Virus record (IMG/VR): IMGVR_UViG_3300032288_005197
Span: 1-64,000 of that record
Reading direction: 5' to 3' (one strand)
DNA length: 64,000 bases
Source: a virus
Shown one piece after another: positions 2,726-59,541 of the stretch. The position numbers and the translations under genes were made by a program. The first letter of the stretch is position 1. Each line of letters opens with the position of its first letter. The notes beneath the pieces were generated by a model. The model ran no database searches. It was not told the DNA's origin and saw only the letters and a program-made list of their open reading frames with translations.

Positions 2726-3076
2726 TTATGCTTTAACTTTCTCAACCTTTCCTGAATAAATCAATGCATCTTCCGGTTTATTCTTGTCATTAACTGCAAC
2801 AATATCGAAATCTCCATCTTTATCCGCTTTTGGCGAAATTGCAATGGTTGCACCGCCTTTAATGCTAGGATTAGTTGAGTTTATCACGTTAAACGAGATC
2901 ATTTCTTTTGTCGTGAATTCGCTATCGCTAGTTCCTTCAACTTCAAATGATTTTCCGTCTGCTGTGATTGTAAGCTTATAAGAACCAGGTTTCGCAGAAT
3001 TAGCCGGCTCCTCCTTTTTTGGAGAAGTTGCCATATCTTCCTCAGCTAACCATTGTTCAAATAATTTGAGCATCAT
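2726..3076 (-). CDS. Small protein with N-terminal capsid-targeting-like tag
   Basis: A 116-residue protein of unknown function. It begins MMLKLFEQWLAEE, matching the tag seen in many proteins here (hydrophobic-x-x-F-x-x-aromatic-hydrophobic-x-E). It resembles the T4 capsid-targeting sequence cut by the prohead protease after Glu. A Lys/Glu-rich linker leads to a beta-rich domain (residues about 32-116) with alternating polar and hydrophobic residues. It is the last gene of the minus-strand head/tail block. A packaged internal head protein is inferred; a minor tail protein is the alternative. Confidence 0.7.
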   Translation of the reverse strand: MMLKLFEQWLAEEDMATSPKKEEPANSAKPGSYKLTITADGKSFEVEGTSDSEFTTKEMISFNVINSTNPSIKGGATIAISPKADKDGDFDIVAVNDKNKPEDALIYSGKVEKVKA

Positions 3077-3080
3077 CTAA

Positions 3081-3737
3081 TTATGCGTTTTCGTCCTGGT
3101 TTTCGTCGTCTCCGATAGCGTTATCGTCATCGTCCTGGTTTTCGTCCTCATCGCTTTCTTCTGTGCAAAGTTTCTTAACTGCTGCACATAATAGATCGCA
3201 AATGTCTTCTTTTGCCATTTCCATCTTTTCAGCGATGTCTTCGATGATGTCTTTAAGATCATCTCCGAACTCTTCCATCAAAGTGGCTAATTGTTCTTCA
3301 TCGATTACTGGCTCGTCAGACGGCATATCGTCATCAGTTGGCATGTCATCGTTTGCTGGCATTTCTTCTTCTGCTTCAGCGAACATGTTGAAGTCTTCGT
3401 TAACGAATTGTTCAAAGCGAAGGATTTTTCCTTCTTCAACAGCGTCAACTGTTGCGATTGTTGGTTTTGCGTACATTGGGTCAAATGGTTTTTTCTTTGC
3501 CGTTCTTGAAATTAGGTCACGAGTTACTGCCTTCCAAGTTGGGTCATAATTATGATTGAATTTTCCACCTTCAAAATCGGCATTTCTGTCGATTACTCGC
3601 TGGTAGCCTTTCAATGTTTCTCTTTTTGATGTATCAAAGTCTTTCTTTGAATTTGGGCCTCCGAAACTAGGTTTCTTAGGATTCATGTAATCATCCATTG
3701 AAGGATTACGTCTGTCTTTAGTGTTGAACATGTCCAT
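3081..3737 (-). CDS. Acidic structural protein with internal capsid-targeting-like tag
   Basis: A 218-residue protein. The first 100 residues are basic and Pro/Lys-rich (KKPSFGGP, SRTAKKKPFDP). The tag ILRFEQFVNE sits at residues 105-114, followed by a very acidic tail (runs of D and E, DEPVIDEEQ, NQDDDDNA). If the head protease cuts after the tag Glu, it would separate a basic N-terminal piece from an acidic C-terminal piece, much as scaffold or core proteins are processed. It lies directly downstream of the tail-tube gene. The function is not known from sequence; a core or internal head protein is my inference. Confidence 0.7.
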   Translation of the reverse strand: MDMFNTKDRRNPSMDDYMNPKKPSFGGPNSKKDFDTSKRETLKGYQRVIDRNADFEGGKFNHNYDPTWKAVTRDLISRTAKKKPFDPMYAKPTIATVDAVEEGKILRFEQFVNEDFNMFAEAEEEMPANDDMPTDDDMPSDEPVIDEEQLATLMEEFGDDLKDIIEDIAEKMEMAKEDICDLLCAAVKKLCTEESDEDENQDDDDNAIGDDENQDENA

Positions 3738-3755
3738 ACCTTTAGATGATTATTT

Positions 3756-4340
3756 TTATTGTCCAATTCGTGATTCTGTATAAGAATCAGCTGTGAATTG
3801 TACAGTTAATTTATAGATACCTTCACTTGTGTAATCAAGAACGGTTTCTGTCATTTTGTTTGGTCCAATGAATACTGGCGAGAACATAAAATCTCTAAAG
3901 ATTAGACCTGCTCGGTTGAACTGAGTTACTTGAATGCTAGCATCAGCGTAATCAGTTTTTAGACCTTGACGACCAGTTAGTGGGTTGTAAATTAGATCAG
4001 CCCATGCTCTTAATGCATTGTAAATGTACATATCGTTAGAATTATTCAAGTTGACTTCAAAATCAATTGTGAATTGGTGATATGTTTGAGCTGGTTTTGC
4101 TGGTGCGTAAGTTCTTTGTGAGAATTTATAGTTTTGGATAACTACCGCTGATCCTGAACCTGCGTATTCTGGTAAGCTAGTCACTTTCAATACGTGTTCA
4201 AGCATTAGATTATTACCGAAACCAATTTTTCCAGACACGGCAGGTGGCGGGGTAATGATAACCTCGAACTGGTTAAGGTAAATAGGTTCGTACTTACCGG
4301 GACCTGCTGTTGAATTTTTAAAATGTGGTAGACCTGCCAT
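3756..4340 (-). CDS. 19: Tail tube protein (gp19-like)
   Basis: A 194-residue protein with the pattern of T4-type tail tube subunits. The N-terminal strand is YEPIYLNQFEVIITPPP, followed by a domain with YKFSQRTYAPAKPAQ and an insert around YNALRAWADLIYNPLTGRQG. It closes with a C-terminal strand pair (MTETVLDYTSEGIYKLTVQFTAD). Length matches gp19 (about 160-200). A late-promoter motif lies at 4361-4370, 21 bases ahead of the ATG. The tail sheath gene that usually neighbours it is not in the window. Confidence 0.75.
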   Translation of the reverse strand: MAGLPHFKNSTAGPGKYEPIYLNQFEVIITPPPAVSGKIGFGNNLMLEHVLKVTSLPEYAGSGSAVVIQNYKFSQRTYAPAKPAQTYHQFTIDFEVNLNNSNDMYIYNALRAWADLIYNPLTGRQGLKTDYADASIQVTQFNRAGLIFRDFMFSPVFIGPNKMTETVLDYTSEGIYKLTVQFTADSYTESRIGQ

Positions 4341-4360
4341 CTTATGTCTTTTATTTTTTA

Positions 4361-4370
4361 GTTATTTATT
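4361..4370 (-). promoter_or_regulatory. T4-type late promoter motif
   Basis: AATAAATAAC on the minus strand, 21 bases upstream of the tail tube ATG. It matches the T4 late -10 consensus TATAAATA except at the first base and coincides with the stop codon of the upstream gene. Confidence 0.65.
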
Positions 4371-5411: not shown

Positions 5412-5717
5412 TTATCCAATTTCTTTTTCTCCCTGGAATTCTTTTCCACGGTTAGATTTCTTTCTAGTTGGGTCAACTGGCTTGTAGTTAGCCCAAATTT
5501 CATTGTAAATTCTGCAAGAAGCTCCCATGAAATTAACGATTCCAACGTACTTCTTACGGTCTTCTCCCTTCATTTTAGAGATTTTCTTTCCAATGCTTCT
5601 CGCATCGTCCAAATCCAATTCCTCATCATCGGTCTTTCCGACCAAATCTTTAAGAGAATTTTCCTGGACCACATAAGCTTGAAAGGACTGAGCCCTATGC
5701 TTGTTTTGATCTTTCAT
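5412..5717 (-). CDS. Small basic protein with capsid-targeting-like tag
   Basis: A 101-residue protein. The N-terminus carries AQSFQAYVVQEN (residues 9-20), a variant of the recurring tag ending in VQE, then an acidic stretch (DDEELDLDDARS) and a basic C-terminal half (KKYVGIVNFMGASCRIYNEIW, TRKKSNRGKEFQGEKE). After cleavage behind the tag the basic part would suit DNA contact inside the head; this is inference. It is packed 4 bases upstream of the next gene in the same late block. Confidence 0.65.
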   Translation of the reverse strand: MKDQNKHRAQSFQAYVVQENSLKDLVGKTDDEELDLDDARSIGKKISKMKGEDRKKYVGIVNFMGASCRIYNEIWANYKPVDPTRKKSNRGKEFQGEKEIG

Positions 5718-5735: not shown

Positions 5736-6101
5736 TTACTTAGGCATTTTAGCCATGCCAGGCTCAACATTCTTGTTGATAGTCTTTCCTTTGATAACTA
5801 ATTTAGCCATCTTAGGTTCAACTTCTTTCTTGATTGCGCTACCTTTAGTTGTAGGTAATTTAGAAGTTTTTTCGTCAACCGTTTTGTTAATAGCTTTACC
5901 TTTACCTTTAGGAAGGTCAGACATTTCAGGCTTAACTGATTTGCTGATCGTTTTACCATTTCCTTTAGGAAGATCTGAAGTGTTAGTGTCTACTGACTTG
6001 TTAGACTTAGAACCTTTACCTTTAGGAAGGTCAGCCATTTGTTGATCAATTGCCTTCTTTTCAAGAAGAAACTCGCCGTAGCTTAGAACTGATTTGCTCA
6101 T
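5736..6101 (-). CDS. Tagged Lys-rich 19-residue repeat protein
   Basis: A 121-residue protein. It starts MSKSVLSYGEFLLEK, a copy of the recurring tag with LLE as a likely protease site. The rest is about five tandem repeats of roughly 19 residues built as (S/A)-[DK]-L-P-K-G-x-G-K-x-I-x-K-x-V. The repeats are Lys/Gly-rich and basic, so a DNA-condensing internal head protein is plausible. T4 internal proteins share this tag-plus-basic-body design. A late-promoter motif at 6136-6145 precedes it, and it lies just downstream of the capsid gene terminator. Confidence 0.75.
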   Translation of the reverse strand: MSKSVLSYGEFLLEKKAIDQQMADLPKGKGSKSNKSVDTNTSDLPKGNGKTISKSVKPEMSDLPKGKGKAINKTVDEKTSKLPTTKGSAIKKEVEPKMAKLVIKGKTINKNVEPGMAKMPK

Positions 6102-6221: not shown

Positions 6222-7958
6222 TTAGTAAGAAGCAGAAGGACGAGTTGAACCAGTCAATACGCCTAGGCCAGTTACTTCCATAGTGATGTATTGAGTTTCA
6301 GGATGCCATCCAGCCTCAGTGATTGCATAACGAGACTTCATACCGATCTTAGGAGAGAAAGTTCCCTCTGCGATAGTTTGAAGAGACTCAGCCATGATGT
6401 AAGGTAAGAATTTAACACCTGGTTCTTCGTCAGCACCTTTACGTCCGATGTGGATACGGTTATCGCTGAAAGACAAGTTAGGATCTACGTAGATGGTTAA
6501 ACCATGTACTTTACCTGCAGGATACAATTGACCTGGAGTAGAAGGTAGATCGTTGTTGAATGGAGCGAAAGAGTAACCAGCAACATCAGCAAGAGCAGAT
6601 GCAACACGACCGTTAGTTACGATGTAAGTACCAGCACCGAAACGACCTCTGTGATAGATCAAGTTAGCCATTTCAAGGATTTTGGTTACAACGCGACGTT
6701 GTAGTGTTGAGATGTTCTCGAAACCAGTTGAACCTACAGTTAGGTCAAGGTTACAGATGTTAGAACCTTCAACCGCTTCAAGAGCAGTTTTGTGAGTAGC
6801 ACCTAAAGTTAATACTCTGTCAACCAATTTCTTGTTGATAGATTGAGCAAGTTCGTTAACCGCTACGTTTTCTAACATAGAGATTACGTCGAAATTCCAA
6901 ACTCTGTTAAGATCTTGGATTTGCTCAACTGTTGCAGAGATAGCAACTTGGTCGCCTTTAGCTTCGATGAACTTAGTGAACATACGAAGACCCATTTGAC
7001 GGAATTTAGAAACCTCAGCGTTAGCACGAGTCATTCCACCAAAGTTAGCTTGAGAACCAGTAGCGCCTAAGAAAGGACCGTCTACGTCTGTAGCTTCAGT
7101 TGAACCTGTACCAGTCCACTCGTTATCACTTAGAGAAGTGAAACCAGAGATATGGTTTTCAAGAGCTGAAACTAATTCGAATTTCTCAGAACCTGAGAAA
7201 GTGAATAGAGCAGAACCAGTTACTGAGTAAGCACCAGAGCTGATCGCAGAAACCGCTTTAAGAACTGGAGAACCAGTAGTTAAGTAGTCTTGGATAGAGT
7301 TAGTAGCTGAATCAGTAGCAGAGATTACTTTGAAGATAGGAGTACCGTCAACACGAGATCTTCCAACGTATTGGATGATCAAGTCATCAGTTAGAGCTCC
7401 ATCGATACCGTAGATAGTACCTGCAGTGATTGATGCGATCAAACCTGTACCAGCAGAACCTGCTAATACCGCGCCAGTAAGCTTCACTAGGAATGGCTCG
7501 TATTGTTTGTCGACGTTACCACCTTGGTATACGTAATCTAGGTAAGGTAGGAAACCTACAGGAGAATCCATAGGAACTACACCAACTAGGTCGAAACCGA
7601 TAGTTTTAGCAGCAACTTGGATAGCTACTGGTAAAAGGCTTGGGAATTTATCACCAGAACCTGATACAGTTGAACCGTAACCTGCTTTAGTAGCACCACC
7701 ACCTGAGAATGGAGTCATTGTAGATGTTGGAGCTGAAATAGCGCCCATTGCGCTAATTGAACCTGGTTGTTGTAGGAATAATCCTGGAGCAACCGAAGAC
7801 TCGTTGATAGCACCTGCGTTATCGAAGATAGCATGGTTGTGAGCTAAGTCAACTAACCAAGGACGAGCGTTGATGTCTGCGCCATAACCTTCTAAAACTG
7901 GAGCCCATGTTTCTTTGATTGAAGAGTCATTCAATCTTTTGAAAATTTTTGTTGCCAT
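6222..7958 (-). CDS. 23: Major capsid protein (gp23-like)
   Basis: A 578-residue protein with T4 gp23 landmarks: TIGFDLVGVVPMDSPVGFLPYLDYVY near residue 115, helical regions with NRVWNFDVISMLENVA, and the C-terminal segment GRKGADEEPGVKFLPYIMAE. Likely prohead-protease sites of the (I/L/V)-x-E type lie in the N-terminal arm: VLE at 21-23 and INE at 51-53 (INE|SSV). This matches removal of an N-terminal piece in T4. The leader is A-rich with no Shine-Dalgarno. A strong terminator follows, and the protease-scaffold gene lies 19 bases upstream. The long Gly/Ser-rich region at 60-100 and the insert at 215-300 are larger than in T4. Confidence 0.92.
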   Translation of the reverse strand: MATKIFKRLNDSSIKETWAPVLEGYGADINARPWLVDLAHNHAIFDNAGAINESSVAPGLFLQQPGSISAMGAISAPTSTMTPFSGGGATKAGYGSTVSGSGDKFPSLLPVAIQVAAKTIGFDLVGVVPMDSPVGFLPYLDYVYQGGNVDKQYEPFLVKLTGAVLAGSAGTGLIASITAGTIYGIDGALTDDLIIQYVGRSRVDGTPIFKVISATDSATNSIQDYLTTGSPVLKAVSAISSGAYSVTGSALFTFSGSEKFELVSALENHISGFTSLSDNEWTGTGSTEATDVDGPFLGATGSQANFGGMTRANAEVSKFRQMGLRMFTKFIEAKGDQVAISATVEQIQDLNRVWNFDVISMLENVAVNELAQSINKKLVDRVLTLGATHKTALEAVEGSNICNLDLTVGSTGFENISTLQRRVVTKILEMANLIYHRGRFGAGTYIVTNGRVASALADVAGYSFAPFNNDLPSTPGQLYPAGKVHGLTIYVDPNLSFSDNRIHIGRKGADEEPGVKFLPYIMAESLQTIAEGTFSPKIGMKSRYAITEAGWHPETQYITMEVTGLGVLTGSTRPSASY

Positions 7959-7977: not shown

Positions 7978-9261
7978 TTAGTTTTGTGCTCTTCTTTGGA
8001 GCATTTCAATGTAAGAATTAGAGTAGCCTCTTAGACTTTCATTGACTTGTTTTAACGAGACATAACCTTCTTTACCTTGGTTTTCGTTAATTGTTTGATT
8101 ATTTATATTTGCTTGGGTAGCAATTCTTTCACTAATTCCTCTAAGATTACGTGAATCCCAGAAAGCTTTAACTTGGTATGGAGTGTTCAACGACATGTTG
8201 TTAGCTTGTGCTGAAATCCAATTTTTTTCACCGTCTGTCATGCTTTCGTATAGCTCTTTGTATTGAGCAGGCATGAATTTAACGTAGTTAGGAGTGTTTT
8301 CAACTTGTTTGTTAAGAACAGCTTCCATGATGTTAACTACTTCGTCTTCTGTGAAGAAGATAGCGCCTTTCATAGTCTCAACGATTGCGGTTTTAGACTC
8401 TTGATCCAAGTTGTAGAAAGCTTGTTTTCTAGCTTCGTTTAACAATTTCAAGAAAGGGTATTTACCTTCCAATACGGCGTTTGCTGTGTTAGATTTAATA
8501 TGAGTTAAAATACCGTCAACTGCATTAACTAGATCGTCAACTGATGAAGTTTCAGAGATTTCAAAATCAGCACTTTCGTTTAATTTCTTAACCTCTCCCA
8601 ATAGAGAACGAGTTTTAGCCGTTGCTCCAGGAATCATTTTTTCATTCAAAGTTTCAACGATGTAGTTAGAATACTTGATACCTTTATCTAAATTTTCTCC
8701 TAAGTAGTTAGAGTATTTGATCGCTGTATCAAGATTCTCAGCTAAGTAGTTAGAGAATTTGATACCGTTTTCAGCATGTTCTGCAACGTGCTCAGAGTAT
8801 TGAATGCTTAGATCAACGTTTTCAGCTAGGTAGTTTGCGTATTCAACTGTCTTTTCAACGTTTTCTGCAACGTATTCAGCATAATTGGCTGTTTCGTTTA
8901 CTTTTTGTCCTAAGTAATCAGAGTAAGCAATGTTCTTTTGAACTTTGTCTCCTAAGTAATCAGAGTAATCAATTACGTTGTTTACTTTTTCTGCAACGTG
9001 TTCAGTGTAGTTAACGCTCTGATTCAACATTGTTGAAAGATAGTTAGTATATTCAACTAGGCTTTCCATTTCGCCAGCTAAGTAGTTTACGTACTCAACC
9101 ATTTTCGAAACTACTGGAGATTCGCCAGTTGAAGCGTTTTCAGAGATCTTTTGAAGACCTTTATTGTTTTTAGAGATGCTCTCTTGTAAAGCTGAGAATT
9201 TCTTTTTAACCAATTCAGAGTATTGGTTCATCTCGTCTTTTGTTACAAACTCATTAGCCAT
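7978..9261 (-). CDS. 22: Scaffold/core protein from internal start within the protease gene
   Basis: In-frame internal ATG (MANEFVTKDEMNQ) preceded 36 bases upstream by a late-promoter motif at 9298-9307. The 427-residue product would hold the entire coiled-coil scaffold part, including the eleven 14-residue repeats, without the protease. Scaffold is needed in large excess over protease, so independent expression makes sense and mirrors lambda Nu3. The sequence shows the motif and start; that the protein is made is inference. After capsid assembly it would be chopped by the protease and lost. Confidence 0.6.
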   Translation of the reverse strand: MANEFVTKDEMNQYSELVKKKFSALQESISKNNKGLQKISENASTGESPVVSKMVEYVNYLAGEMESLVEYTNYLSTMLNQSVNYTEHVAEKVNNVIDYSDYLGDKVQKNIAYSDYLGQKVNETANYAEYVAENVEKTVEYANYLAENVDLSIQYSEHVAEHAENGIKFSNYLAENLDTAIKYSNYLGENLDKGIKYSNYIVETLNEKMIPGATAKTRSLLGEVKKLNESADFEISETSSVDDLVNAVDGILTHIKSNTANAVLEGKYPFLKLLNEARKQAFYNLDQESKTAIVETMKGAIFFTEDEVVNIMEAVLNKQVENTPNYVKFMPAQYKELYESMTDGEKNWISAQANNMSLNTPYQVKAFWDSRNLRGISERIATQANINNQTINENQGKEGYVSLKQVNESLRGYSNSYIEMLQRRAQN

Positions 9262-9969
9262 TTGCTGTGTATTATTTTGTTTAGGTGTTGTTTCAGAATT
9301 ATTTATTTTATAGATTCTCACAGAATCTTCAAAATTGAAGTTTTCAGAAATATCCGTTAATTTGTTGGTAATCGCAGTAGTCTTTAGGTTGTCTAAAGAT
9401 TCAAAAATCGCTGAGAAGCTGCCTTGTAAGCTTTCAGATACTTGAGATAGTGAAGCTTGTGAGAAACCAGGTTCAGCCACTAGATCGTAAGTAAAAATCT
9501 TATGTAGCTTAACTTTACCGTTCTGGTCAACATTACCTGCCGCTCTAGACGATACTGAGGTTGTGCAGCCTGATTCAACTAGAGTCTTTGCGATCTTTCC
9601 ACATGGAGTGTCAAGAAGACGTAGTCTAATCTTTACGCTATTAGAACCTTCATCGTAACTAAGACCTTCGATTACGTGAGATACGTTAGCTAGAGAAATA
9701 TCAAATTTTTGTGGATGATCAAGTTCACCAAAGAGTCTGCGCTCTTCAATCTTCTTGTTTAGATACTGTAAGTGAGGTAAGTATTCGTTCTTTTCGTATA
9801 CACGATTATTTTCGTTTACGACGCCAAAAACGGCAGCAGTACCTTCAAGAATAACGTCACCGTTAGTTTCTTTAGTTACAGTAACGGCCTCGTTAATTCG
9901 TTCAATGATGAACACCGAATTTTCAGGAACGACCGTTTGGTTTAGGTTAGCGATTTTAGTATTACTCAA
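7978..9969 (-). CDS. 21: Prohead protease gp21 fused to scaffold/core protein (gp22-like)
   Basis: The 663-residue product has a T4 gp21-type serine protease in its first 185 residues, with catalytic His85 (GELDHP) and the Ser in SVSSR (140-141), the same positions as T4 gp21. A linker leads to a second part starting MANEF at residue 237 and built of coiled coil. Residues 291-444 are eleven exact-length 14-residue repeats of the form (I/V)-x-Y-[ST]-x-Y-[LV]-x-E-x-[LV]. T4 encodes protease and scaffold as separate genes; here they share one frame, as in lambda C/Nu3. The start is TTG, with a late-promoter motif at 9988-9997. An internal promoter and start (9261) could make scaffold alone. Confidence 0.85.
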   Translation of the reverse strand: MSNTKIANLNQTVVPENSVFIIERINEAVTVTKETNGDVILEGTAAVFGVVNENNRVYEKNEYLPHLQYLNKKIEERRLFGELDHPQKFDISLANVSHVIEGLSYDEGSNSVKIRLRLLDTPCGKIAKTLVESGCTTSVSSRAAGNVDQNGKVKLHKIFTYDLVAEPGFSQASLSQVSESLQGSFSAIFESLDNLKTTAITNKLTDISENFNFEDSVRIYKINNSETTPKQNNTQQMANEFVTKDEMNQYSELVKKKFSALQESISKNNKGLQKISENASTGESPVVSKMVEYVNYLAGEMESLVEYTNYLSTMLNQSVNYTEHVAEKVNNVIDYSDYLGDKVQKNIAYSDYLGQKVNETANYAEYVAENVEKTVEYANYLAENVDLSIQYSEHVAEHAENGIKFSNYLAENLDTAIKYSNYLGENLDKGIKYSNYIVETLNEKMIPGATAKTRSLLGEVKKLNESADFEISETSSVDDLVNAVDGILTHIKSNTANAVLEGKYPFLKLLNEARKQAFYNLDQESKTAIVETMKGAIFFTEDEVVNIMEAVLNKQVENTPNYVKFMPAQYKELYESMTDGEKNWISAQANNMSLNTPYQVKAFWDSRNLRGISERIATQANINNQTINENQGKEGYVSLKQVNESLRGYSNSYIEMLQRRAQN
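8638..9099 (-). repeat. Eleven tandem 42-bp units encoding a 14-residue coiled-coil repeat
   Basis: Translated residues 291-444 of the protease-scaffold protein divide exactly into eleven 14-mers, each with Tyr/Phe at position 3, Tyr or His near position 6 and Leu/Val near position 7 (for example IKYSNYLGENLDKG). Fourteen is two heptads, so the array should form one continuous coiled-coil rod. The DNA copies are diverged, indicating old duplication under protein-level selection. Confidence 0.9.
9298..9307 (-). promoter_or_regulatory. Internal late promoter motif inside the protease gene
   Basis: AATAAATAAT on the minus strand within the protease coding frame, 36 bases before the internal ATG at 9261. 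Same form as the motifs in front of other late genes. Confidence 0.55.
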
Positions 9970-22120: not shown

Positions 22121-22672
22121 TTACCATCCTCCAATCGTGAACTCGTAACTAAATTGACTAGCGTCAAATGACTTATTCATGTGAATTTCGACCGAAGTCG
22201 GCTCAATCGGAAAATGCTGTTTTGCATTGTCCCATTCAAATCTATCTCCGATGTTATCGTCGATCATTTCAATGAAAGTGTTCACCGATTCGTCGTTAGC
22301 TTCATCCCAGGTCTCAATATCAATCACCAATTTCATTCGTTTAGGAATGAATAACATGGTTTGAACACCAGAATCGTCCCACACTATTATTATATCGTAT
22401 TCAAGTTCCAGTTTGTGAGCTGACACGTATTCAATCTCAGTTGCACTGGCAAATCCCATTGCCCTAAGTTCAGCTTGCTCTTCCTTTGATATTCCCGGAT
22501 CTTCGTTGTCTATTGTGTCAGGATTGTCATACAGGCTAACTTCACTACGCTCGAATGTCTTTTTAAAAATTTCAGGCTTTCGATATTGGTATTGCGACCA
22601 CTTAAGTTGATCTGGCCCTTTATATGATTCAGTTATCAAGTAAGACCTAAATGATTCGGTTGCCTTTGACAT
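22121..22672 (-). CDS. Tagged acidic protein, probable capsid cargo
   Basis: A 183-residue protein. The N-terminus has the tag ESFRSYLITE (residues 6-15; ITE is a good prohead-protease site). The rest is acidic and aromatic-rich (DIIIVWDDSGVQTMLFIPKRMKLVIDIETWDE, FEWDNAKQHFPIEPTSVEIHMNKSF). It looks like a compact alpha/beta domain I do not recognise. It ends the 22-27 kb operon before the terminator. A packaged internal protein is inferred from the tag and location. Confidence 0.65.
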   Translation of the reverse strand: MSKATESFRSYLITESYKGPDQLKWSQYQYRKPEIFKKTFERSEVSLYDNPDTIDNEDPGISKEEQAELRAMGFASATEIEYVSAHKLELEYDIIIVWDDSGVQTMLFIPKRMKLVIDIETWDEANDESVNTFIEMIDDNIGDRFEWDNAKQHFPIEPTSVEIHMNKSFDASQFSYEFTIGGW

Positions 22673-23283: not shown

Positions 23284-24249
23284 TTACCAAAAGCCTGGGT
23301 AAGTTTTGCCTCCCCATAAATGAGCGTATCGGTTAATTCTGCATGCCCAATAGCCAGCTTTCATTCTGTCGTTTTTTAGGTGACATTGATGTCTTGCTGC
23401 AAAACTTTTACGTGCTTTAGGATTACTTACCTTGGCAGTTAATCCTCCATGTACATCACCGAACGCGATCTTTTTAACTCTTTTTGTTTTCGGATTCATG
23501 ACATACACGTAGTACTTCTTTGTTCCGCCACGCATGGGTTTTCCGATCTCGACCTTCTTTCCATTGTATTCTGCTTCAAACAAAAAATCCAATGGAACAA
23601 TTTCTCCTCGATACTCACCAAATCTTCCAAGGTCGGTCTCTTCGAATAGAATCTGGTCGATCCCAGTAAGTTCAATTTCTCCTCGGTCGTATGCCGTTCT
23701 AGCTTCAGCCAGAAGTTCAAAATGAGCTTGACTTGCAGGTCGATACACTGACTCTGCTATTGAGATACCTTCGTTGATGTGATAAAGTAGGCTTTCAGAC
23801 ATCGGGTCAAGATCCGGATTTGGAATTTTATTCCATGATCTTTCAGCATTAACTCCTCTTCCTCTAGCCAGTTTAATCTCATGGGCTACTTGTTTTAGAT
23901 ACACTAAGGCTTCTTCATAGTCCCCACTACTCATTAATTCATCGATCTCTTCAGCCTCTTCTTTATCTAGTTTTGCCATGTAAACGACTGCATGCCTTTG
24001 AGCATTGAATTGACATCTCATTGCCATCATGCCTACCGTATGATTAAATTCCTTTGTAACAGAATCACTATCTTCCTTTGAAATGATTCCCATGTCAAGT
24101 AGTTCAGTAGCCGCTTCCATTTCAACATCGCTCGGAGCCTTCATGAATGACTCTAGACCTTTACAATCGGCAATACCATAGTACCATTCAGCTTGTGAAT
24201 TTCTAAATGATTCATTGAATTGGCCAAATGATTTTACGAGTCCTTTCAT
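23284..24249 (-). CDS. Tagged protein with basic CHxC-type C-terminal domain
   Basis: A 321-residue protein. The tag VKSFGQFNE is at residues 5-13. Residues 30-215 are mostly helical. From about 228 comes a basic domain (KPMRGGTKKYYVYVMNPKTKRVKKIAFGD, FAARHQCHLKNDRMKAGYWACRINRY) of a type recurring in T4-like marine phage virion proteins. The LFE at 222-224 in front of it is another candidate cleavage site, so maturation could release the basic domain as a small DNA-binding peptide. This is inference from motifs. Confidence 0.7.
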   Translation of the reverse strand: MKGLVKSFGQFNESFRNSQAEWYYGIADCKGLESFMKAPSDVEMEAATELLDMGIISKEDSDSVTKEFNHTVGMMAMRCQFNAQRHAVVYMAKLDKEEAEEIDELMSSGDYEEALVYLKQVAHEIKLARGRGVNAERSWNKIPNPDLDPMSESLLYHINEGISIAESVYRPASQAHFELLAEARTAYDRGEIELTGIDQILFEETDLGRFGEYRGEIVPLDFLFEAEYNGKKVEIGKPMRGGTKKYYVYVMNPKTKRVKKIAFGDVHGGLTAKVSNPKARKSFAARHQCHLKNDRMKAGYWACRINRYAHLWGGKTYPGFW

Positions 24250-24254: not shown

Positions 24255-24890
24255 TTATTCTCTAGTTAATGTACCTCCGCACTCACATAAATCGCCTTCG
24301 TTGATGACTGCTGCCTCATAAGAGATTCCACATTCATTACATTTGTAACTTCCATCGGCCATGTATTCTGCATTACCTGGATTATCTGAGAATCTACCAT
24401 TGTGCTCAGAACGCTCTTTCCCAGAAGAGTCTTTATCTTTAGGGCCAAAGTTCTTTAGTCTAGCTAAACTCTCGGCTCTTGCTTTAGGATCATAATCTCT
24501 CATAGTTCCTTTTACGTTTGTGTGAGGTGCTGATAAAATATCTCTATCATGAATACCTTCTTCAACTTCCTCAGTCATTTCACCGATTAAGAAGTTAGCA
24601 ACCTCTTCCATATCGTCCTTTGAAGTAGCGATATGATCTACTGCCCAGCTGTGTCCATTCTTTAAAATTTGATCAACCTTTAACGGATCCATTTTTAACA
24701 TGATCTCTGCTAATCTATGAACGGTTTCCAAGTTTCCAAAGAACATGTAGTTCTCAGTTTCATGATGATCATCATGGTCGATTTTAGCGGCTGGATGTTG
24801 CTGCATATCCGCGTTTGGTGCCTGGTGAGGCATCATGTCTTGGTCTTCATGACCATTAAAAAAACTTTCGAATGTTTTAACAATTCTCAT
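24255..24890 (-). CDS. Tagged protein with C-terminal zinc ribbon
   Basis: A 211-residue protein. The tag-like VKTFESFFNG is at residues 4-13; the Glu is replaced by Gly-His-Glu. A His/Asp-rich stretch follows (KIDHDDHHETEN), then a helical middle. The C-terminus is a zinc ribbon (YKCNECGISYEAAVINEGDLCECGGTLTRE) with two Cys pairs. It could bind nucleic acid or simply be structural. It lies in the cargo-like operon between the large coiled-coil gene and the basic-domain gene. Confidence 0.65.
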   Translation of the reverse strand: MRIVKTFESFFNGHEDQDMMPHQAPNADMQQHPAAKIDHDDHHETENYMFFGNLETVHRLAEIMLKMDPLKVDQILKNGHSWAVDHIATSKDDMEEVANFLIGEMTEEVEEGIHDRDILSAPHTNVKGTMRDYDPKARAESLARLKNFGPKDKDSSGKERSEHNGRFSDNPGNAEYMADGSYKCNECGISYEAAVINEGDLCECGGTLTRE

Positions 24891-26448: not shown

Positions 26449-26449
26449 A

Positions 26450-26872
26450 TTAGGCCTCAAATTGTAATAAGTATTTAGTCTTGTTGACCAAATCTAAAAT
26501 TTCATCAGTCAAGTTGTATAGTTCTGAATCTTTATCCCTGTCGAATAGCTCGCAGAAAGTTCCTCTGAAGGTTACTTCAACCATGTCAAAAAATTCGCCG
26601 ACTGCCATTTCGTAATCGCATATTTCAATGGCTGCTTCTCCGAACTTCAGCTGGTCCTTTCCGTATTTACCGGCGATCGCTTCAACAATTATGTCCATTT
26701 GATCAATGAATCCCTCGTAAAAAGCACCATAATGGCGATGTTCTCTGTCATAACGAGTCTGCCAGTGAATTATTTTAGCCTGGTCAGCTATTTGCATCAA
26801 CGATAGCATGAAATATGCAATTGATACGTTTTGAGATTCTTCAGCTTCAGGTAGTTCTTCTAATCCAAACAT
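26450..26872 (-). CDS. Dps/ferritin-like protein (DUF5856-type)
   Basis: A 140-residue helical protein. AKIIHWQTRYDREHRHYGAFYEGFIDQMDIIVEAIAGKYG resembles the helix pair of Dps proteins. His (HWQ), a second His in EHRH, Asp and Glu are spaced such that H-x14-D-x3-E equals the ferroxidase ligand spacing of Dps (H43, D58, E62). The first His is three residues closer than in Dps. Phage relatives occur in T4-like phages with unknown role. It sits in the capsid-cargo-like operon and could bind metal or DNA inside the head. It shares one base with its upstream neighbour. Confidence 0.65.
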   Translation of the reverse strand: MFGLEELPEAEESQNVSIAYFMLSLMQIADQAKIIHWQTRYDREHRHYGAFYEGFIDQMDIIVEAIAGKYGKDQLKFGEAAIEICDYEMAVGEFFDMVEVTFRGTFCELFDRDKDSELYNLTDEILDLVNKTKYLLQFEA

Positions 26873-34336: not shown

Positions 34337-34349
34337 ACGATATTTTACT

Positions 34350-34359
34350 GATAAATAAC
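34350..34359 (+). promoter_or_regulatory. T4-type late promoter motif
   Basis: GATAAATAAC on the plus strand in the divergent gap, 28 bases before the ATG at 34388. Confidence 0.5.
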
Positions 34360-34387
34360 CTAGTAGTTTTATCTAATATACCAAATA

Positions 34388-34855: not shown

Positions 34856-34887
34856 AACTTCGGTCAATATCTTGATAAAATATAAAG

Positions 34888-35328: not shown

Positions 35329-35344
35329 AATTACTGATACTTGA

Positions 35345-36877: not shown

Positions 36878-37595
36878 CTAGCTTTATCGTAAAGTCACGA
36901 GCATCTCCGAATTCAGAAGAAGACCAGGTGCTAACGTAAACGTCCAACTTTCCTACCTTGATGGGGTTTTGTTCAAAACCTTCTCCCCAACCGTCAGAGT
37001 ATTGACCGGATAACCATTCTTTCATTTCTTCAACTGACAAATCCGATGTTGCGTTAACCTCAACTCTAAACATTCCGTCATCGGTTACCTCAACCGCTTT
37101 GATTGACTCAACTCCTGGAATTTCACAAAACTGAACAAGATCAGTCTCATTGAAATCTTCAATCATTTCATCAGCTATATCAGCTGGATCAATACTGGTG
37201 TATTGAAGAGGTTGCGGACGATTGCTAGATTGACGACTCATGCTCTGAATTTCGCTCCAAACATCATCAAAGAATTCATCATCAGTTATTTCTTCATCTT
37301 GAAATTGTTTGTATTGCCATTCGAACTCTGCTTCATACCCAATTTCTCCCATTGCTTGCATGAATTGGTTCGGATCTCCCCATTGCATTGCATTTTCAGC
37401 GTATGCCTCAATGTCTTCTCTAATATAGATTGGCGATTCAAATATGAACGCGTGAGTTGTTGGAAAACCCATTGTCCCAAGTTCACGAGTTGAAGTATCA
37501 TCCATCGTGGGAGTGTCAGTTTCAGAATTACGATCAAAATCGAATTCTAACTGTTTTTCAGTTGTGAACTGTTCGAATAGTTTAATGTGTTTCAT
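36867..37595 (-). CDS. Tagged acidic protein
   Basis: A 242-residue, strongly acidic protein. The tag IKLFEQFTTE occupies residues 4-13 and a TTE site could be cut. The remainder is rich in Asp, Glu and Trp (SGQYSDGWGEGFEQNPIKVG; VYVSTWSSSEFGDARDFTIKLV) and contains an alpha/beta domain I cannot place. Together with the next two genes it forms a small minus-strand operon of tagged proteins. The tail overlaps the uvsW gene by 11 bases. Confidence 0.65.
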   Translation of the reverse strand: MKHIKLFEQFTTEKQLEFDFDRNSETDTPTMDDTSTRELGTMGFPTTHAFIFESPIYIREDIEAYAENAMQWGDPNQFMQAMGEIGYEAEFEWQYKQFQDEEITDDEFFDDVWSEIQSMSRQSSNRPQPLQYTSIDPADIADEMIEDFNETDLVQFCEIPGVESIKAVEVTDDGMFRVEVNATSDLSVEEMKEWLSGQYSDGWGEGFEQNPIKVGKLDVYVSTWSSSEFGDARDFTIKLVNP

Positions 37596-37611: not shown

Positions 37612-38373
37612 TTATGAGTAAATATCGGTAATCCAATCATAGAAAAGATCTTCAGCCTTTTCTCTAAATCTTTCAATTTCTTCTGTTATGACTGCCAGGT
37701 CTTCCTTGATTTCAGTAAGTTCAGCGAGTTCCTTATTGACCCAGTTTAGCAAGTCTTGCCTAGATTTCATTGCCTCTTGACCATTCTCAAGCTCATCAGC
37801 GCTAATCAAGCCCATATCGGCAAGCTCCTTAATGTCTGGATTGCTCACCAAATTCTTAATTAGTTCAAGATCAGAATCGCCGTTGATGTAGTTCAAATAG
37901 TCTTCTATTTGATAACTTGCATCGTCTTCAATATTATCATGAGTCGCTTCAGGGTAAATTAACAACCAACCTCCGCTCTTACCGCCTGCTCCAACATCTT
38001 TTATCCATGAAAATGATTGTTTGTAGTCTTCAGCGTGCACTTCGTAAGTTCCTTCCATGTATCTAGCCCAGTCTTCATACATCATTTCATCATTAACATC
38101 CTCCAAGTCGTCTTCTCCTCTTGCTCGTGCCCATTTCGCTAAGTCTGGGTATTCATGAATTTTCATGTTCAACGCGTAGTGAGCTCTACCGCCCTCTCTT
38201 TCATACCAGTACTTGTTCTCCAGATCATTCAGCGCATTAGATAGTTCTTCTAATTTACCAATGACTTCAGTATCTTGCAGTTGATCTAACTTATTTAAGT
38301 AATACGAGCCAACATCTCGATTCGCTCTTTCCAATATGAATTGTGAAAACGTAAATATTCTATTACCTAGCAT
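37612..38373 (-). CDS. Tagged protein of unknown function
   Basis: A 253-residue protein. The N-terminus carries IFTFSQFILERA (residues 6-17), one of the best tag copies, with ILE as cleavage site. The rest is acidic and helical, with a short Gly-rich turn (GAGGKSGGWLLIYPEATH). The 3' half is a coiled coil (LAELTEIKEDLAVITEEIERFREKAEDLF). It overlaps the upstream gene by 11 bases. Internal head or core protein is inferred. Confidence 0.65.
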   Translation of the reverse strand: MLGNRIFTFSQFILERANRDVGSYYLNKLDQLQDTEVIGKLEELSNALNDLENKYWYEREGGRAHYALNMKIHEYPDLAKWARARGEDDLEDVNDEMMYEDWARYMEGTYEVHAEDYKQSFSWIKDVGAGGKSGGWLLIYPEATHDNIEDDASYQIEDYLNYINGDSDLELIKNLVSNPDIKELADMGLISADELENGQEAMKSRQDLLNWVNKELAELTEIKEDLAVITEEIERFREKAEDLFYDWITDIYS

Positions 38374-38764
38374 TCCTCGCTTTACTTATTTCAATCGCCT
38401 GTAATTGCTTTACTGCTTTTTTACGGCTTGAGTGAGTTCCCAATACCTTGGTCCCCTTTTTGTTCTTTACTTCCCATTTATCTCCGTGCTTAACGATTTT
38501 TTCGTTCATCTCGCTAAACTCTGAAAAACTATGAACCTTATTTTCCTGAATCGCTAATTCCAGCTGTTTGACCTGTGCAACCGCGACTGGTTCTGATTCG
38601 GTACCGCAATTGCCAAAGGCAGCTGCGCAGGTTTCAACTTTTTTGACTATCTCGGCTACCTTATCTTTAATAACCTCAAGCTTTTGAACTTGAACTGTCG
38701 TTAATTCAGTCGTATTTTCTTCGATCATGTACAGATACTCAAGAAACTGGTCAATTTTTTCCAT
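38363..38764 (-). CDS. Tagged protein with basic C-terminal 'KGTKVLG' domain
   Basis: A 133-residue protein. The first 75 residues are helical with a Cys pair. The tag VHSFSEFSEMNE is at residues 77-88. The final 45 residues form a small basic domain (KHGDKWEVKNKKGTKVLGTHSSRKKAVKQLQAIE), a type of short alpha/beta module common in phage proteins. Cleavage after the tag would release this basic module. It is one base from the next gene upstream. Confidence 0.65.
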   Translation of the reverse strand: MEKIDQFLEYLYMIEENTTELTTVQVQKLEVIKDKVAEIVKKVETCAAAFGNCGTESEPVAVAQVKQLELAIQENKVHSFSEFSEMNEKIVKHGDKWEVKNKKGTKVLGTHSSRKKAVKQLQAIEISKARNAR

Positions 38765-47304: not shown

Positions 47305-47673
47305 TTAGATAGCTTTGCTAGCCTTGTTCTTTTGCTCTATTTGCTGTTGAACCTGCTTGATTCGGCTCAAGATAGAAAGACGTTTGTCATCCGTGTCAGC
47401 ATTCGCTAACTCTTTTCTAAGTTCGCGAGTTGCAGTGATTGCATCCATCTCAGATTGAGTATCCGCTGAACTTTCCTTGATCGGCTCAGTTACCGTTTTT
47501 GTGTAATCCGGTTCAGTCGCCTTTATTCCAGTAGACAGGCTTGCTCGCTTGACCTGATCAATTGATTTCTCCTTTTTTACTGGAGCTGCAGCTTTAACAT
47601 CAAGCGCAGTTTTCGGATCTTCAAGTTTCGGACCCTTTACGAATGAATCGAAGTTTAAAATTTTGTTACTCAT
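47305..47673 (-). CDS. Tagged coiled-coil protein
   Basis: A 122-residue protein, starting at the ATG at 47673, which lies 17 bases after the late motif; an upstream TTG adds four residues. The tag ILNFDSFVKG is at residues 5-14, with Lys-Gly instead of x-Glu. The rest is Lys/Glu-rich with a long coiled coil at the C-terminus (ELRKELANADTDDKRLSILSRIKQVQQQIEQKN). Internal head or core protein is inferred. Neighbours are a second tagged gene downstream in genome order and a structural gene. Confidence 0.6.
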   Translation of the reverse strand: MSNKILNFDSFVKGPKLEDPKTALDVKAAAPVKKEKSIDQVKRASLSTGIKATEPDYTKTVTEPIKESSADTQSEMDAITATRELRKELANADTDDKRLSILSRIKQVQQQIEQKNKASKAI

Positions 47674-47690
47674 AGTATTTGTCAATTTTT

Positions 47691-47700
47691 ATTATTTATC
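47691..47700 (-). promoter_or_regulatory. T4-type late promoter motif
   Basis: GATAAATAAT on the minus strand, 17 bases before the ATG at 47673. It overlaps the stop of the upstream tagged gene. Confidence 0.65.
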
Positions 47701-47946
47701 GCTGCTCTGATCTGGTTCAAATATTCCATCCACGAATTCGTTGAACGTTAGTACCTTTTTGGTCTTTGGGTTGACTCCTATTCCTGGAGTATTGTTCATT
47801 TTCATGTCCCTTCTTGAAATCGGCTGGGTCGCTAACCAATGATTCGGAATTCCACCCATGTGAATATTAATCGGAGTCGGTTGAATATTTGGATCATTAC
47901 TCTGGGTGAAAGCTGCTGCGGGTACTGACCCTGTGCTATTTGCCAT
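47692..47946 (-). CDS. Small tagged protein
   Basis: An 84-residue protein. The better start is the ATG at 47946 (MANSTGSVPAAAF), 24 bases behind the late motif; the ATG at 47967 would be only 3 bases from it. The tag VLTFNEFVDG is close to the C-terminus (residues 65-74). The first 60 residues are Pro/Asn/His-rich and flexible. Its role is unknown; the tag suggests capsid cargo. Confidence 0.55.
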   Translation of the reverse strand: MANSTGSVPAAAFTQSNDPNIQPTPINIHMGGIPNHWLATQPISRRDMKMNNTPGIGVNPKTKKVLTFNEFVDGIFEPDQSSDK

Positions 47947-47970
47947 ATTTTTAGCGTGTTCTTTCATAGG

Positions 47971-48041: not shown

Positions 48042-49487
48042 TTAGTATTCTGGGCTCCAGTTACGATCTCCGCAATTAGAACATCTCATTCTAGGATTCT
48101 CTGCAATCTCTTCGTGTTCTGCACGTTCTCCGCACGTATCACAAGAGTACGCAGTAGATTCATTAACGTTTAAATTTTCAACGGTGACTTTAAAAATCAC
48201 CTTATCCATATTTAATTCCCATGTACCGGTATTTTGCATGCGGGATGCTCCAATATTAACCGGCTTGCTATAAGTCTCGGTTTTACCACCGTTCATGAAA
48301 GTAACCTTTGTTCCGTTTGAGGAAAACGTTCCGTTTTTTGCAGCAGGGCCTAGTTTGTGACTAATCCAACTAGCTAAAGCATGGTCCATCACCGAGTATT
48401 GATTACCTGGACCAGTTGCAGGCTTTCCCTCAGTAACACGTAGGTTTGCAGCAGCTTCCATCATGCACTCTGTCATGTAAGAACCGCATTCATTCAAATA
48501 CGATTCGTAAGTGTGCATTGGATCCTTGTCCTCATCGCACATTTGAGCCTCTTTAATCAAAATTTCTTCGCAAATCGTCTTAACAGCTCTCTTTGCCTCT
48601 TCTGACATTGCTAGATTGTAGCCTTCTTCCATTGGATTCCAACACTCATTCACGAAACTCTGAAAAGACTCAACGACCTTTGTTGATTTGCTTTTTCTTA
48701 GCAATTCAAAATCATTTTTGTCCAACTTACCGTTTTTATTCTTATCAAGTTTCTTTTGACCCTTAGTTAATTTTTCAGAAACAGGTTCAATCATTGGACC
48801 TGGTACAGGCTTACGAAGTTCTTCGTGTCTAACTTTATCTACGAATCTAACTAATCGGCGTTGAATGTTATCTGGAAACTGCCCAGTCTTGTCAACTCGA
48901 CCGTCTGAATATATTACAATTCTTGCAAAAATTCCACGAGCTTCGTGAAACTCTATTGAAATCGACTGTTGATAATCATCAGAACTACCCATTCCGGTCT
49001 TTTTGACCTCAGCTGTAACATCATCTCCGAACATGCTTGCGATTGATTGAGCTTCTCTCTTGATTTCTGGGCTAATATGAGTTTCAAAAGAACGTGCTTG
49101 TTGCAATACTTTATTACGTCTGAATCCCTCTTTTTCTGGATCAAGCTCCTTTTCTTTATCCCAAGCTTTTATGAAAGCACTACGTTTAACCGCATTAGAA
49201 ATCTCGTCAACTTGGCTAGATTCTTCCATGCCAGAAACGATTTCAACCTCAACTGGAATTGAGTACTCGTGATCGCCGTGTTGAGCGATCAACATTCCGT
49301 CACCGTCATAGTCAAATCTCAACTCAACTTCTTGACCGTCGTGTGTTTTTATTAGGATCATGGCATGATCATCACCATGTCCACTTAATGATAATATTTC
49401 TGGATGAATTGATCTTCCCTCGTGTGATTCTGGAATGGGCTCTCCCATCATGAATTTAGGTATTCTCTTGTTACCGAACTTTCCCAT
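48042..49487 (-). CDS. Large tagged protein with EF-hand and zinc ribbon
   Basis: A 481-residue modular protein. Residues 30-90 are beta-rich (AMILIKTHDGQEVELRFDYDGDG). Residues 95-225 are mixed. DKNKNGKLDKNDF (248-260) is a canonical EF-hand loop. The tag VVESFQSFVNE follows at 271-281. The C-terminal 34 residues are a zinc ribbon with two CxxC pairs (SCDTCGERA, CSNCGD). The middle tag could be a protease site freeing the C-terminal half. Its late promoter carries the exact T4 consensus. Internal virion protein is my best guess. Confidence 0.65.
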   Translation of the reverse strand: MGKFGNKRIPKFMMGEPIPESHEGRSIHPEILSLSGHGDDHAMILIKTHDGQEVELRFDYDGDGMLIAQHGDHEYSIPVEVEIVSGMEESSQVDEISNAVKRSAFIKAWDKEKELDPEKEGFRRNKVLQQARSFETHISPEIKREAQSIASMFGDDVTAEVKKTGMGSSDDYQQSISIEFHEARGIFARIVIYSDGRVDKTGQFPDNIQRRLVRFVDKVRHEELRKPVPGPMIEPVSEKLTKGQKKLDKNKNGKLDKNDFELLRKSKSTKVVESFQSFVNECWNPMEEGYNLAMSEEAKRAVKTICEEILIKEAQMCDEDKDPMHTYESYLNECGSYMTECMMEAAANLRVTEGKPATGPGNQYSVMDHALASWISHKLGPAAKNGTFSSNGTKVTFMNGGKTETYSKPVNIGASRMQNTGTWELNMDKVIFKVTVENLNVNESTAYSCDTCGERAEHEEIAENPRMRCSNCGDRNWSPEY

Positions 49488-49506: not shown

Positions 49507-49516
49507 GTTATTTATA
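49507..49516 (-). promoter_or_regulatory. T4-type late promoter (exact consensus)
   Basis: TATAAATAAC on the minus strand, including TATAAATA. It lies 19 bases ahead of the ATG at 49487 and overlaps the stop of the heptose kinase gene. Confidence 0.75.
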
Positions 49517-58753: not shown

Positions 58754-58764
58754 GTTATTATACT
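58754..58764 (-). promoter_or_regulatory. Second promoter motif (AGTATAATAAC)
   Basis: AGTATAATAAC on the minus strand, same class as the motif at 56110. It lies about 137 bases upstream of the ATG at 58617, with a long leader. Confidence 0.35.
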
Positions 58765-58778
58765 CAATAAAAACAAAA

Positions 58779-58798
58779 AAGTCCCCAATTGGGGACTT
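58779..58798 (-). terminator. Rho-independent terminator
   Basis: AAGTCCCC-AATT-GGGGACTT perfect hairpin followed by a T run on the minus strand, 29 bases past the stop of the gene at 58827. Confidence 0.88.
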
Positions 58799-58826
58799 AA
58801 TTAAATAGTGGTCGTAAAAATTAGCT

Positions 58827-59222
58827 TTACACAGATTTAAAAACTATGCTAACTAGTATGCCGGCAACTGCTGTGAATAGAATCCACAGAATTTTGGTTA
58901 CCGTGCTCTTCCATGACATTAATTCCTTGTGTTCGTCAATGATGTTTTGAAAAGTCTTTTCGGACTCCTCTTTTCTTTTACGAAATTCGGTGTTCTTATT
59001 AACTCTGACAACGATTCCGTCCTCTGGATCTAATAGTTGCTTTTTGATCTGTCTCAGATCTTCATGCATGTCCTCTTGAGCAGATTCAATATTCTCAATC
59101 TTGTCCTGTATTGACTTGATCTCGCCGTTTGGCATCTTGTCCTTGATCACATCAAGGGCATCAAGAATGTCATTCATCATAGAGTCAATATCGTGATTGA
59201 CTTCTCTGCGTCTTCCGCTCAT
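58827..59222 (-). CDS. Coiled-coil protein with C-terminal transmembrane helix (holin-like)
   Basis: A 131-residue protein. Residues 10-70 form coiled coil (IDSMMNDILDALDVIKDKMPNGEIKSIQDKIENIESAQEDM). The last 25 residues are one membrane helix (VTKILWILFTAVAGILVSIVFKSV). The shape matches XhlA-type hemolysin/holin-like proteins and DUF-type phage membrane proteins. A role in lysis timing is the most likely guess, but single-pass coiled-coil proteins have other roles too. Confidence 0.5.
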   Translation of the reverse strand: MSGRRREVNHDIDSMMNDILDALDVIKDKMPNGEIKSIQDKIENIESAQEDMHEDLRQIKKQLLDPEDGIVVRVNKNTEFRKRKEESEKTFQNIIDEHKELMSWKSTVTKILWILFTAVAGILVSIVFKSV

Positions 59223-59232
59223 CTAGGAAAAA

Positions 59233-59541
59233 TTAGTCTTTTTTAGGCTCGTCATCCATCATGACGTTTGCATCAACGACAGGGGCATTAGCTTCTCCGT
59301 TTTCGTCATCCGTCATGTGAACTGCTGCGTCCGCTTCAGGCTCATCATCAATAGGCTCTTGAGCTGGAACTGGCATATCGTCACCAGTCGGCTCATCGCT
59401 AATTGGCTCGTCCATTACAGTAGGCAGTTCGTCTTGCATTGGCTCAATTTCAGAAGCTGGCATCTCTGGGCCAACTTGACCTTGTGCATTCTGCTTCACG
59501 AAATCCTCAAAGCTTAAGATTGTACTGTTATTAGTCTCCAT
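59233..59541 (-). CDS. Tagged acidic protein
   Basis: A 102-residue, very acidic protein. The tag ILSFEDFVKQN is at residues 8-18; the Glu site is replaced by Gln-Asn. The remainder is Pro/Glu/Asp-rich and disordered (EPISDEPTGDDMPVPAQEPIDDEPE). It resembles the acidic tail of the 3.1-3.7 kb tagged protein, hinting at a common internal-head role. A late-promoter motif precedes it (59561-59570). Confidence 0.6.
   Translation of the reverse strand: METNNSTILSFEDFVKQNAQGQVGPEMPASEIEPMQDELPTVMDEPISDEPTGDDMPVPAQEPIDDEPEADAAVHMTDDENGEANAPVVDANVMMDDEPKKD

Follow-up and report, generated by a model that had tools for sequence, protein, structure and literature searches.

A T4-type capsid-targeting tag appears to be carried by many unrelated proteins of huge phages

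Introduction

Capsid targeting in bacteriophage T4 is known for a handful of proteins. Here we describe a tag of this general kind, an N-terminal pair of aromatic residues preceded by a hydrophobic residue, that recurs in otherwise unrelated predicted proteins of a 64,000-nucleotide stretch of viral DNA (the window), which is part of the 85,560-base IMG/VR record IMGVR_UViG_3300032288_005197 (the contig), and in huge phages related to it.

The review PMC9026906 assigns targeting of the T4 internal protein IPIII mainly to residues 4 and 7 and processing to residues 8 and 10, reports that Asp at position 10 abolishes processing and spares targeting, and states that the internal proteins co-purify with gp22 and that gp23 sheds a 65-residue propeptide. 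In the sequences themselves, IPIII has its two aromatics at positions 4 and 7, and the gp23 propeptide ends in FGSFLTE, also with an aromatic pair. SPN3US and its relatives have many head proteins, several of them cut by the prohead protease, as well as ejection proteins, according to PMC5694885; unlike the tags described here, their propeptides are mostly much longer (four exceed 100 residues), and a counterpart of gp22 in giant phages was unconfirmed at the date of that paper. In the P1 system, as described in PMC9024508, the N-terminal 30 residues of DarB carry a reporter into the capsid, a likeness to the present tags, but a consensus of DarB with the other Dar proteins was not found and P1 apparently lacks a separate scaffold system. 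Phage genomes of 634, 636, 642 and 735 kb are placed with Lak in the Mahaphage clade, for which Bacteroidetes hosts are predicted, in PMC7162821.

Results

The contig encodes a gp21-family prohead protease, a gp23-like major capsid protein and a tail tube, as well as a portal, a head-tail adaptor, a baseplate protein, a piece of tail sheath and a piece of DNA polymerase. Megablast of 24 kb of the contig against a phage collection that may omit very near records gives no match. At the protein level, the protease has relatives in 801 phage records, the best of which are LR756500 (W01, 462 kb), LR756504 (W02, 636 kb), LR745206 (W03, 635 kb) and LR756501/3 (735 kb; LR756501 is W04), followed by Lak phages, and a scan of viral contigs yields 44 loci. 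We take the contig to be a fragment related to huge phages of 462-735 kb. The sequences G001-G006 are close relatives of the window and are not independent of it.

The original prediction listed sixteen tag-like peptides, and all sixteen are found in the predicted proteins at the genes named, here labelled by leftmost coordinate. The motif as first written, hydrophobic-x-x-F-x-x-[FYW]-[VIL]-x-E, fits only 5 of the 16 and was dropped as a definition, whereas the shorter core [FY]-x-x-[FYW] is present in 16 of 16; the observation is thus partly confirmed, and is real once the motif is reduced to this core. What stays fixed in the tag is the aromatic pair, together with a hydrophobic residue three positions earlier. 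Because several tags have no Glu at the usual place, we regard the pair, and not the whole 10-mer, as the tag. A [VILM]xE site follows the pair at several distances: in the canonical arrangement F[VILM]xE, immediately as in YKIFE|S, or later as in FSINE|A. In six further pair-bearing N-termini of the contig a site is within reach in none, and among pair proteins of non-canonical spacing the excess of sites reaches p<0.05 in LR745206 and G001 only, so that a displaced cleavage site is a feature of part of the tagged set.

Motif scans against shuffled controls give a clear N-terminal excess in the contig and a weak one over whole proteins. Genes were called with a simple, unbenchmarked dicodon script; starts may be wrong, and some window genes were trimmed. 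A loosened motif is found in 10 whole proteins of the contig outside the protease/scaffold protein versus 4.9 in shuffles (maximum 12), or, scored as hits with overlaps counted twice, 18 versus 6.0 (maximum 16); at N-termini the same motif is found in 5 proteins versus 0.38 (maximum 3). The whole-protein counts are too weak to carry the claim, and N-termini, orthologues and other genomes were therefore used instead. Proteins with at least 5 core motifs, namely most scaffold fusions and a tape-measure-like protein of LR756501, were removed before N-terminal enrichment was counted; the protease/scaffold fusion of LR756500 has fewer than 5 and stayed in.

The canonical expression [FY]xx[FYWH][VILM]xE within the first 16 residues, compared with the mean of 200 shuffles, occurs in 5 versus 0.3 proteins of the contig, 12 versus 0.5 of G001, 23 versus 2.5 of LR756500, 25 versus 3.4 of LR745206 and, over the first 400 kb, 22 versus 2.2 of LR756504 and 32 versus 2.0 of LR756501; G002-G007 give 3-10 versus 0.2-0.6. 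All 12 scanned genomes or fragments of the group are thus enriched at the N-terminus. In these same genomes the motif is not raised overall at C-termini and at most mildly raised in interiors. Both aromatic positions are filled at 10-17% of N-terminal [VILM]xE sites versus 1-2% of interior ones in six genomes, in which Glu falls at residues 9-14 in 107 of 286 matches. The pair alone (hydrophobic-xx-[FY]xx[FYW], expectation from shuffles of the first 45 residues) is likewise in excess in LR745206 (114 versus 23), LR756501 (72 versus 12), LR756504 (58 versus 15.5), LR756500 (57 versus 15), G001 (26 versus 3) and the contig (11 versus 1.5), with no excess in Lak-C1 (8 versus 6.8), T4 (3 versus 4.5) or Syn33 (0 versus 2.3). 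The canonical scan of Lak-C1 gives no excess in the standard code (2 versus 1.5) or after re-calling of the first 300 of its 540 kb with TAG read as Gln (1 versus 1.1). When the pair is combined with a gp21-type [VILM]xE site within 12 residues, and proteins shorter than 40 residues are removed first, 249 of 3618 proteins from the 12 genomes or fragments qualify where 15 are expected. The excess in each genome or fragment amounts to about 5-12% of its genes, and a single genome has up to 61 such called genes.

A tag matrix for the contig, whose training set was limited to N-terminal tags from four other huge phages, ranks eight contig N-termini at p<=0.0022: those of genes 5736, 37612, 59233, 64180, 65945, 36867 (p 0.0004), 2726 (p 0.0013) and 47305. 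It recovers 6 of the 10 N-terminal copies originally listed and misses 24255 (p 0.02), 5412, 22121 and 23284; of the six internal or C-terminal copies it recovers two, 3081 (p 0.0003) and 24895 (p 0.0045). More tagged genes lie just past the window, at 64180, 64976 and 65945. Gene 16803 (RYKQFVKS, matrix p 0.0007) is kept in close relatives but was left out as doubtful: it has no Glu and is absent in several distant relatives (L031, L036, L037 and LR756500).

Tags are conserved across relatives. For 13 contig genes with N-terminal tags, the pair is present in 83 of 85 distinct relatives by a loose test that accepts it anywhere in the first 20 residues, with starts picked near the homologous start and many relatives close; in several of these genes it persists in relatives of no more than 25-45% overall identity. 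For the internal or C-terminal copies (genes 3081, 24895, 48042, 47692, 31327 and 38363), the pair is kept in 49 of 49 spanning relatives, and that of 31327 stands at the aligned position even in LR756500, LR756504, LR745206, LR756501 and G007 at 22-27% identity. Gene 65535, outside the original list, lacks its copy in G002.

The carriers are otherwise unrelated, as had been claimed. The canonical motif lies within the first 16 residues of 119 proteins, and in 111 of these its Glu comes no later than residue 15. Once the tags are removed, BLASTP (E 1e-3) sorts these 111 canonical tagged proteins into 89 clusters, 78 of them singletons. PHROGs and Pfam assign no function to most tagged proteins of the window, and 19 of 30 singly scanned tagged proteins of relatives, picked mainly for length, have no Pfam match at E 0.001. 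The Pfam tallies list 25 of 57 families for the 111-protein canonical set and 25 of 26 for a further set of 106 proteins, which for G007 includes the canonical ones too and from which three proteins spanning a 20-kb boundary were skipped. Among the families listed, the tagged set has LRR domains (5 members), methyltransferases, PPK2, T4-type RNA ligase, GH108 and FMN reductase. A 2'-5' RNA ligase/Acb1-like domain occurs in two tagged members, one above the Acb1 cut-off; PNK 3'-phosphatase and SMODS-associated NUDIX domains are seen only in the group tally, among the families listed.

The closest match is to the tags of T4 IPI, IPII and IPIII, which are likewise N-terminal, of about 10 residues, with the same aromatic spacing, an I/L-x-E site and unrelated bodies, in a genome that also encodes a gp21-family protease. 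Applied to 247 called T4 genes, the canonical expression returns three, ipII, ipIII and gp61.1; T4 serves as a control by identity only, two of the three genes found being annotated internal proteins. The ipI product starts MKTFKEF, which puts the pair at residues 4 and 7, and its presumed site, which is ITE|A-like, comes later, 12 residues from the pair. Unlike T4, with three genes by expression and ipI by eye, a single huge-phage genome has up to 61 called genes with pair and site, many of the tagged proteins carry enzyme domains, and the second spacing YKIFE|S occurs. Two T4 genes of NC_000866 have similar starts: hypothetical gp61.1 (18966-19130, L232) begins MKTFKEFIKED, an internal-protein-like start, and gene 57B (73952-74410, L234), which we take to be Acb1, begins MMEFKDFSTG, has its pair where the neighbouring ipI does (residues 4 and 7) and could be a packaged protein.

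The gp21 homologue noted in the window is borne out by a profile match to T4 gp21 (5jbl, E 2.9e-4). Its gene (7978..9969, minus strand) encodes the protease at residues ~25-270 (9160-9897) and runs on into a scaffold-like C-terminal region with eleven tandem 14-residue repeats (8638..9099, minus strand; residues 291-444), which has a self-match of 0.41 at lag 14. The repeats carry an aromatic pair, [YF]xxY in 9 of 11 and YxxH in 2 of 11, and [VLI]xE at the same place in 7 of 11. The region thus appears to be built of tag-like repeats, one of which the tag resembles. Homologous fusions with such repeats, some degenerate, are found in LR756500, LR756504, LR745206, LR756501 and G007-type loci; the Lak-C1 protease fusion has none. 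When a tag matrix trained on other phages is applied to whole proteomes, the fusion ranks first of 580 proteins in LR756504, 933 in LR745206, 520 in LR756501 and 189 in G007. The neighbouring major capsid gene (6222..7958, minus strand) encodes a gp23-like protein with a predicted cleavage site AINE|SS that lacks the aromatic pair, and the order protease/scaffold-capsid matches T4 21-22-23. Like gp22, the scaffold-like region adjoins protease and capsid genes and has several gp21-type sites; unlike gp22, it forms one polypeptide with the protease and consists of aromatic repeats, each of 14 residues. A PHROGs search of the fusion matches the protease part only (E 0.001), with no direct comparison with gp22 made. 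Directly upstream of the fusion gene lies a gene that reads as a DnaJ-like co-chaperone (10034-10927).

A late-promoter-like element is commoner before tagged genes in five of six genomes. The sequence ATAAATA[AG], which resembles the T4 late promoter TATAAATA, occurs 27 times in the contig. One copy precedes the protease/scaffold gene by about 20 bases, another the tail tube gene by 21, and others lie 4-34 bases ahead of tagged genes 5736, 31327, 47305, 48042, 59233 and 65945; the window's capsid gene has none close by, and several occurrences in the contig precede no called start. In the AT-rich genomes of the four huge phages, all 8 capsid and scaffold genes have ATATATA in the 70 bases upstream, and 6 of the 8 have the exact AATATATA there. 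With patterns derived from the upstream 8-mers of all genes, AATATATA precedes 16/32 tagged versus 50/547 untagged genes in LR756504 (uncorrected p 2e-8), 34/66 versus 149/866 in LR745206 (uncorrected p 1.5e-9), 10/34 versus 44/625 in LR756500 and 13/51 versus 67/467 in LR756501; ATATATAG precedes 13/51 versus 24/467 in LR756501, and ATAAATAA 9/20 versus 23/185 in G001. Tagged genes adjoin each other more than expected by chance in five of six genomes, LR745206 being the exception. The minus-strand location remarked on in the original prediction is not general, as tags are found on both strands in relatives.

In the window, the carriers are all on the minus strand. A tagged small protein (2726..3076) has LKLFEQWLAEE at 3038-3070, with the pair kept in 12 of 12 relatives to 37% identity. 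An acidic-tailed protein (3081..3737) has an internal ILRFEQFVNE at 3396-3425, kept in 15 of 15 spanning relatives. Next to the capsid gene are 5412..5717, with AQSFQAYVVQE at 5661-5693 and its Glu one residue late (14 of 14), and 5736..6101, with VLSYGEFLLE at 6060-6089 (15 of 15) and ATAAATAA upstream at 6143. Gene 22121..22672 has ESFRSYLITE at 22628-22657, again with Glu one residue late (4 of 4), 23284..24249 has VKSFGQFNE at 24211-24237 (9 of 10), and 24255..24890 has VKTFESFF at 24858-24881 (7 of 8), with Gly at the Glu place in the window and Glu in two relatives (G004 and G001). The copy in 24895..26460, GFADFIKE at 24910-24933, is C-terminal (10 of 10), and that in 31327..33195, PSFNEFVGDE at 31990-32019, is internal (11 of 11), in a protein with a weak nucleotidyltransferase match below the curated cut-off.

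Tagged protein 36867..37595 has IKLFEQFTTE at 37557-37586 (two relatives), and 37612..38373 has IFTFSQFILE at 38329-38358, kept in 6 of 6, with three homologues at 28-30% identity that begin MKLQRFQQFINEA; the overlapping 38363..38764 has an internal VHSFSEFSEMNE at 38501-38536 (5 of 5). Two neighbours have no Glu in the motif, 47305..47685 with ILNFDSFVKG at 47632-47661 and ATAAATAA upstream at 47699, and 47692..47967 with the near-C-terminal VLTFNEFVDG at 47725-47754 (4 of 4). An internal VVESFQSFVNE at 48645-48677 is found in 48042..49487 (4 of 4; ATAAATAA upstream at 49515), and a tagged acidic protein, 59233..59541, has ILSFEDFVKQN at 59488-59520, with no Glu at the usual place and ATAAATAA upstream at 59569.

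Discussion

We consider it very probable that a T4-type capsid-targeting sequence has been hugely expanded onto many unrelated proteins in a group of huge phages, with docking and cleavage as in T4. This targeting reading, already put forward in the original prediction, is well supported on comparison and T4 genetics, by the N-terminal enrichment, the pattern of the T4 ip genes, T4 mutagenesis, the gp21-family protease and the late-promoter-like element. Packaging and cleavage are read across from T4: the hydrophobic residue and the pair [FY]xx[FYW] near the N-terminus would dock the protein on the internal prohead scaffold, and the prohead protease would cut at a gp21-type [VILM]xE site beside or shortly after the pair, freeing the mature cargo. 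We read the pair as the docking element chiefly because the targeting residues 4 and 7 of IPIII are its aromatics, and a separate targeting role fits, since some tags (59233, 47305) keep the pair with no Glu. A tagged protein may enter the head by imitating one scaffold repeat, because the fused repeats mostly carry the same pair and often the same site, and the protease would then cut scaffold and tags alike. Docking by repeat mimicry is a good and plausible hypothesis. Phages of this group thus probably load a large protein cargo into their particles.

The motif might instead have nothing to do with targeting and be only an extended sequence by which the prohead protease recognises the precursors of head proteins. 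That tags and scaffold repeats both carry [VILM]xE would fit, as would the pair in FGSFLTE at the end of the gp23 propeptide (65 residues; PMC9026906), but the tags of 59233 and 47305 and their relatives keep the pair with no Glu at the usual place, although a more distant site is possible there, the ipI pair is 12 residues from its presumed site, and the pair is absent from the sites predicted in these phages' capsid proteins. T4 mutants, moreover, separate targeting from processing (PMC9026906), and we judge this alternative unlikely. Still less probable is that the tag directs proteins to some other phage structure within infected cells, for instance a replication compartment or the membrane, where cargo enzymes (RNA ligase, PPK2, methyltransferases) could act; the match to T4 internal-protein tags, the protease sites beside the pair and the element shared with capsid and scaffold genes speak for the head. 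Common descent, with the tag a leftover and the tagged proteins diverged copies of one family, would account for the few paralogue clusters, the largest of 8 and 7 members, but it is very hard to square with 89 clusters among 111 proteins, 78 of them singletons, and with very different Pfam domains, and we give it the least weight.

Several observations weigh against targeting by a T4-type tag, or against its mimicry of the repeats. The three T4 genes are, as a count, not beyond shuffles (mean 0.8, maximum 4). Chance accounts for an expected ~15 of the 249 pair-plus-site proteins, and some tagged genes are probably chance matches, for example a DegT aminotransferase, from a family with a tag-like start, and, within the looser class, the RecA-like, tRNA synthetase and portal genes. 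The upstream element was assessed in 19 pattern-by-genome tests with uncorrected p-values, and these are negative in G007 for all three patterns, in LR756500 and LR756504 for GATATATA, in LR756501 for AAAAATAA and in G001 for TATAAATAA. By the tag matrix, the fusion does not come first in the contig or in LR756500, and in G001 a protein of 560 residues, presumably the portal, scores equally. The likeness between repeats and tags is inexact: in the repeats the second aromatic is preferably Tyr or His, Ala tends to precede Glu and the hydrophobic residue stands one position nearer; tags favour Phe and Asn or Lys. No such repeats are seen in gp22 of T4 or Syn33, so that they are not needed for this kind of tag, and the 1691-residue tape-measure-like protein of LR756501 (21458-26533) has similar FVKYLIE repeats near the tag pattern, so that likeness to the tag can arise in helical repeats. 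Structure prediction gives a poor model for the fusion (mean predicted local distance difference test score 47.5; repeats 28-47), with at most a hint of helices. Residue-by-residue co-change of tag and repeat between phages is not seen; the sole contrast between phages is Lak-C1, which has no repeats, no aromatic tag and a different tag.

A bolder version of the targeting reading would make the tag a single scaffold repeat and the core a fibre of 14-residue aromatic repeats that includes the protease; any protein with a repeat-like unit acquired at its end would be built into this core and then freed by the protease. About 1 gene in 10-20 would then be delivered to the next host, including candidate counter-defence or repair enzymes (Acb1/2H-type phosphoesterase, RNA ligase, PNK phosphatase, NUDIX); we hold this to be possible, while leaning slightly against it. 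A literature search of titles and abstract openings, with most subscription journals outside it, returned no such tag or repeat scaffold for huge phages, and both the fusion of protease to repeat scaffold and the scale of the tag go beyond the printed record found in that search. No published virion proteome is known to us for these huge phages. If targeting holds, packaged cargo could be predicted by scanning the sequences of phages that rank among the largest known, and the tag would show which of the many huge-phage genes of no known function are at work when infection begins; the scaffold repeats would be a concrete candidate docking partner, and the many natural tag variants could serve for loading proteins into phage heads.

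The different tag of Lak-C1 (MK250029) is a repeated N-terminus like MNKxIKxL[LVI]E[SN]LFDD, found in 7 of 313 called genes of its first 300 kb versus 0.03 expected, for example at 1557-2606 and 34333-35541; the Lak-C1 protease fusion ends AKILEQTYDNI, a faint echo of it. A 61-residue gene of T4 (123265-123450) begins MELITELFDG, akin to this N-terminus, and T4 Alt starts in a similar way. Elsewhere in the window, the DNA polymerase piece at 39421-41070 matches its profile only at the C-terminal part (498-839 of 856), and the polymerase may be split. At 49512-52139, kinase-like, nucleotidyltransferase-like and epimerase-like genes are clustered and, on a reading of their sequences, suggest a sugar-nucleotide, perhaps heptose, pathway.

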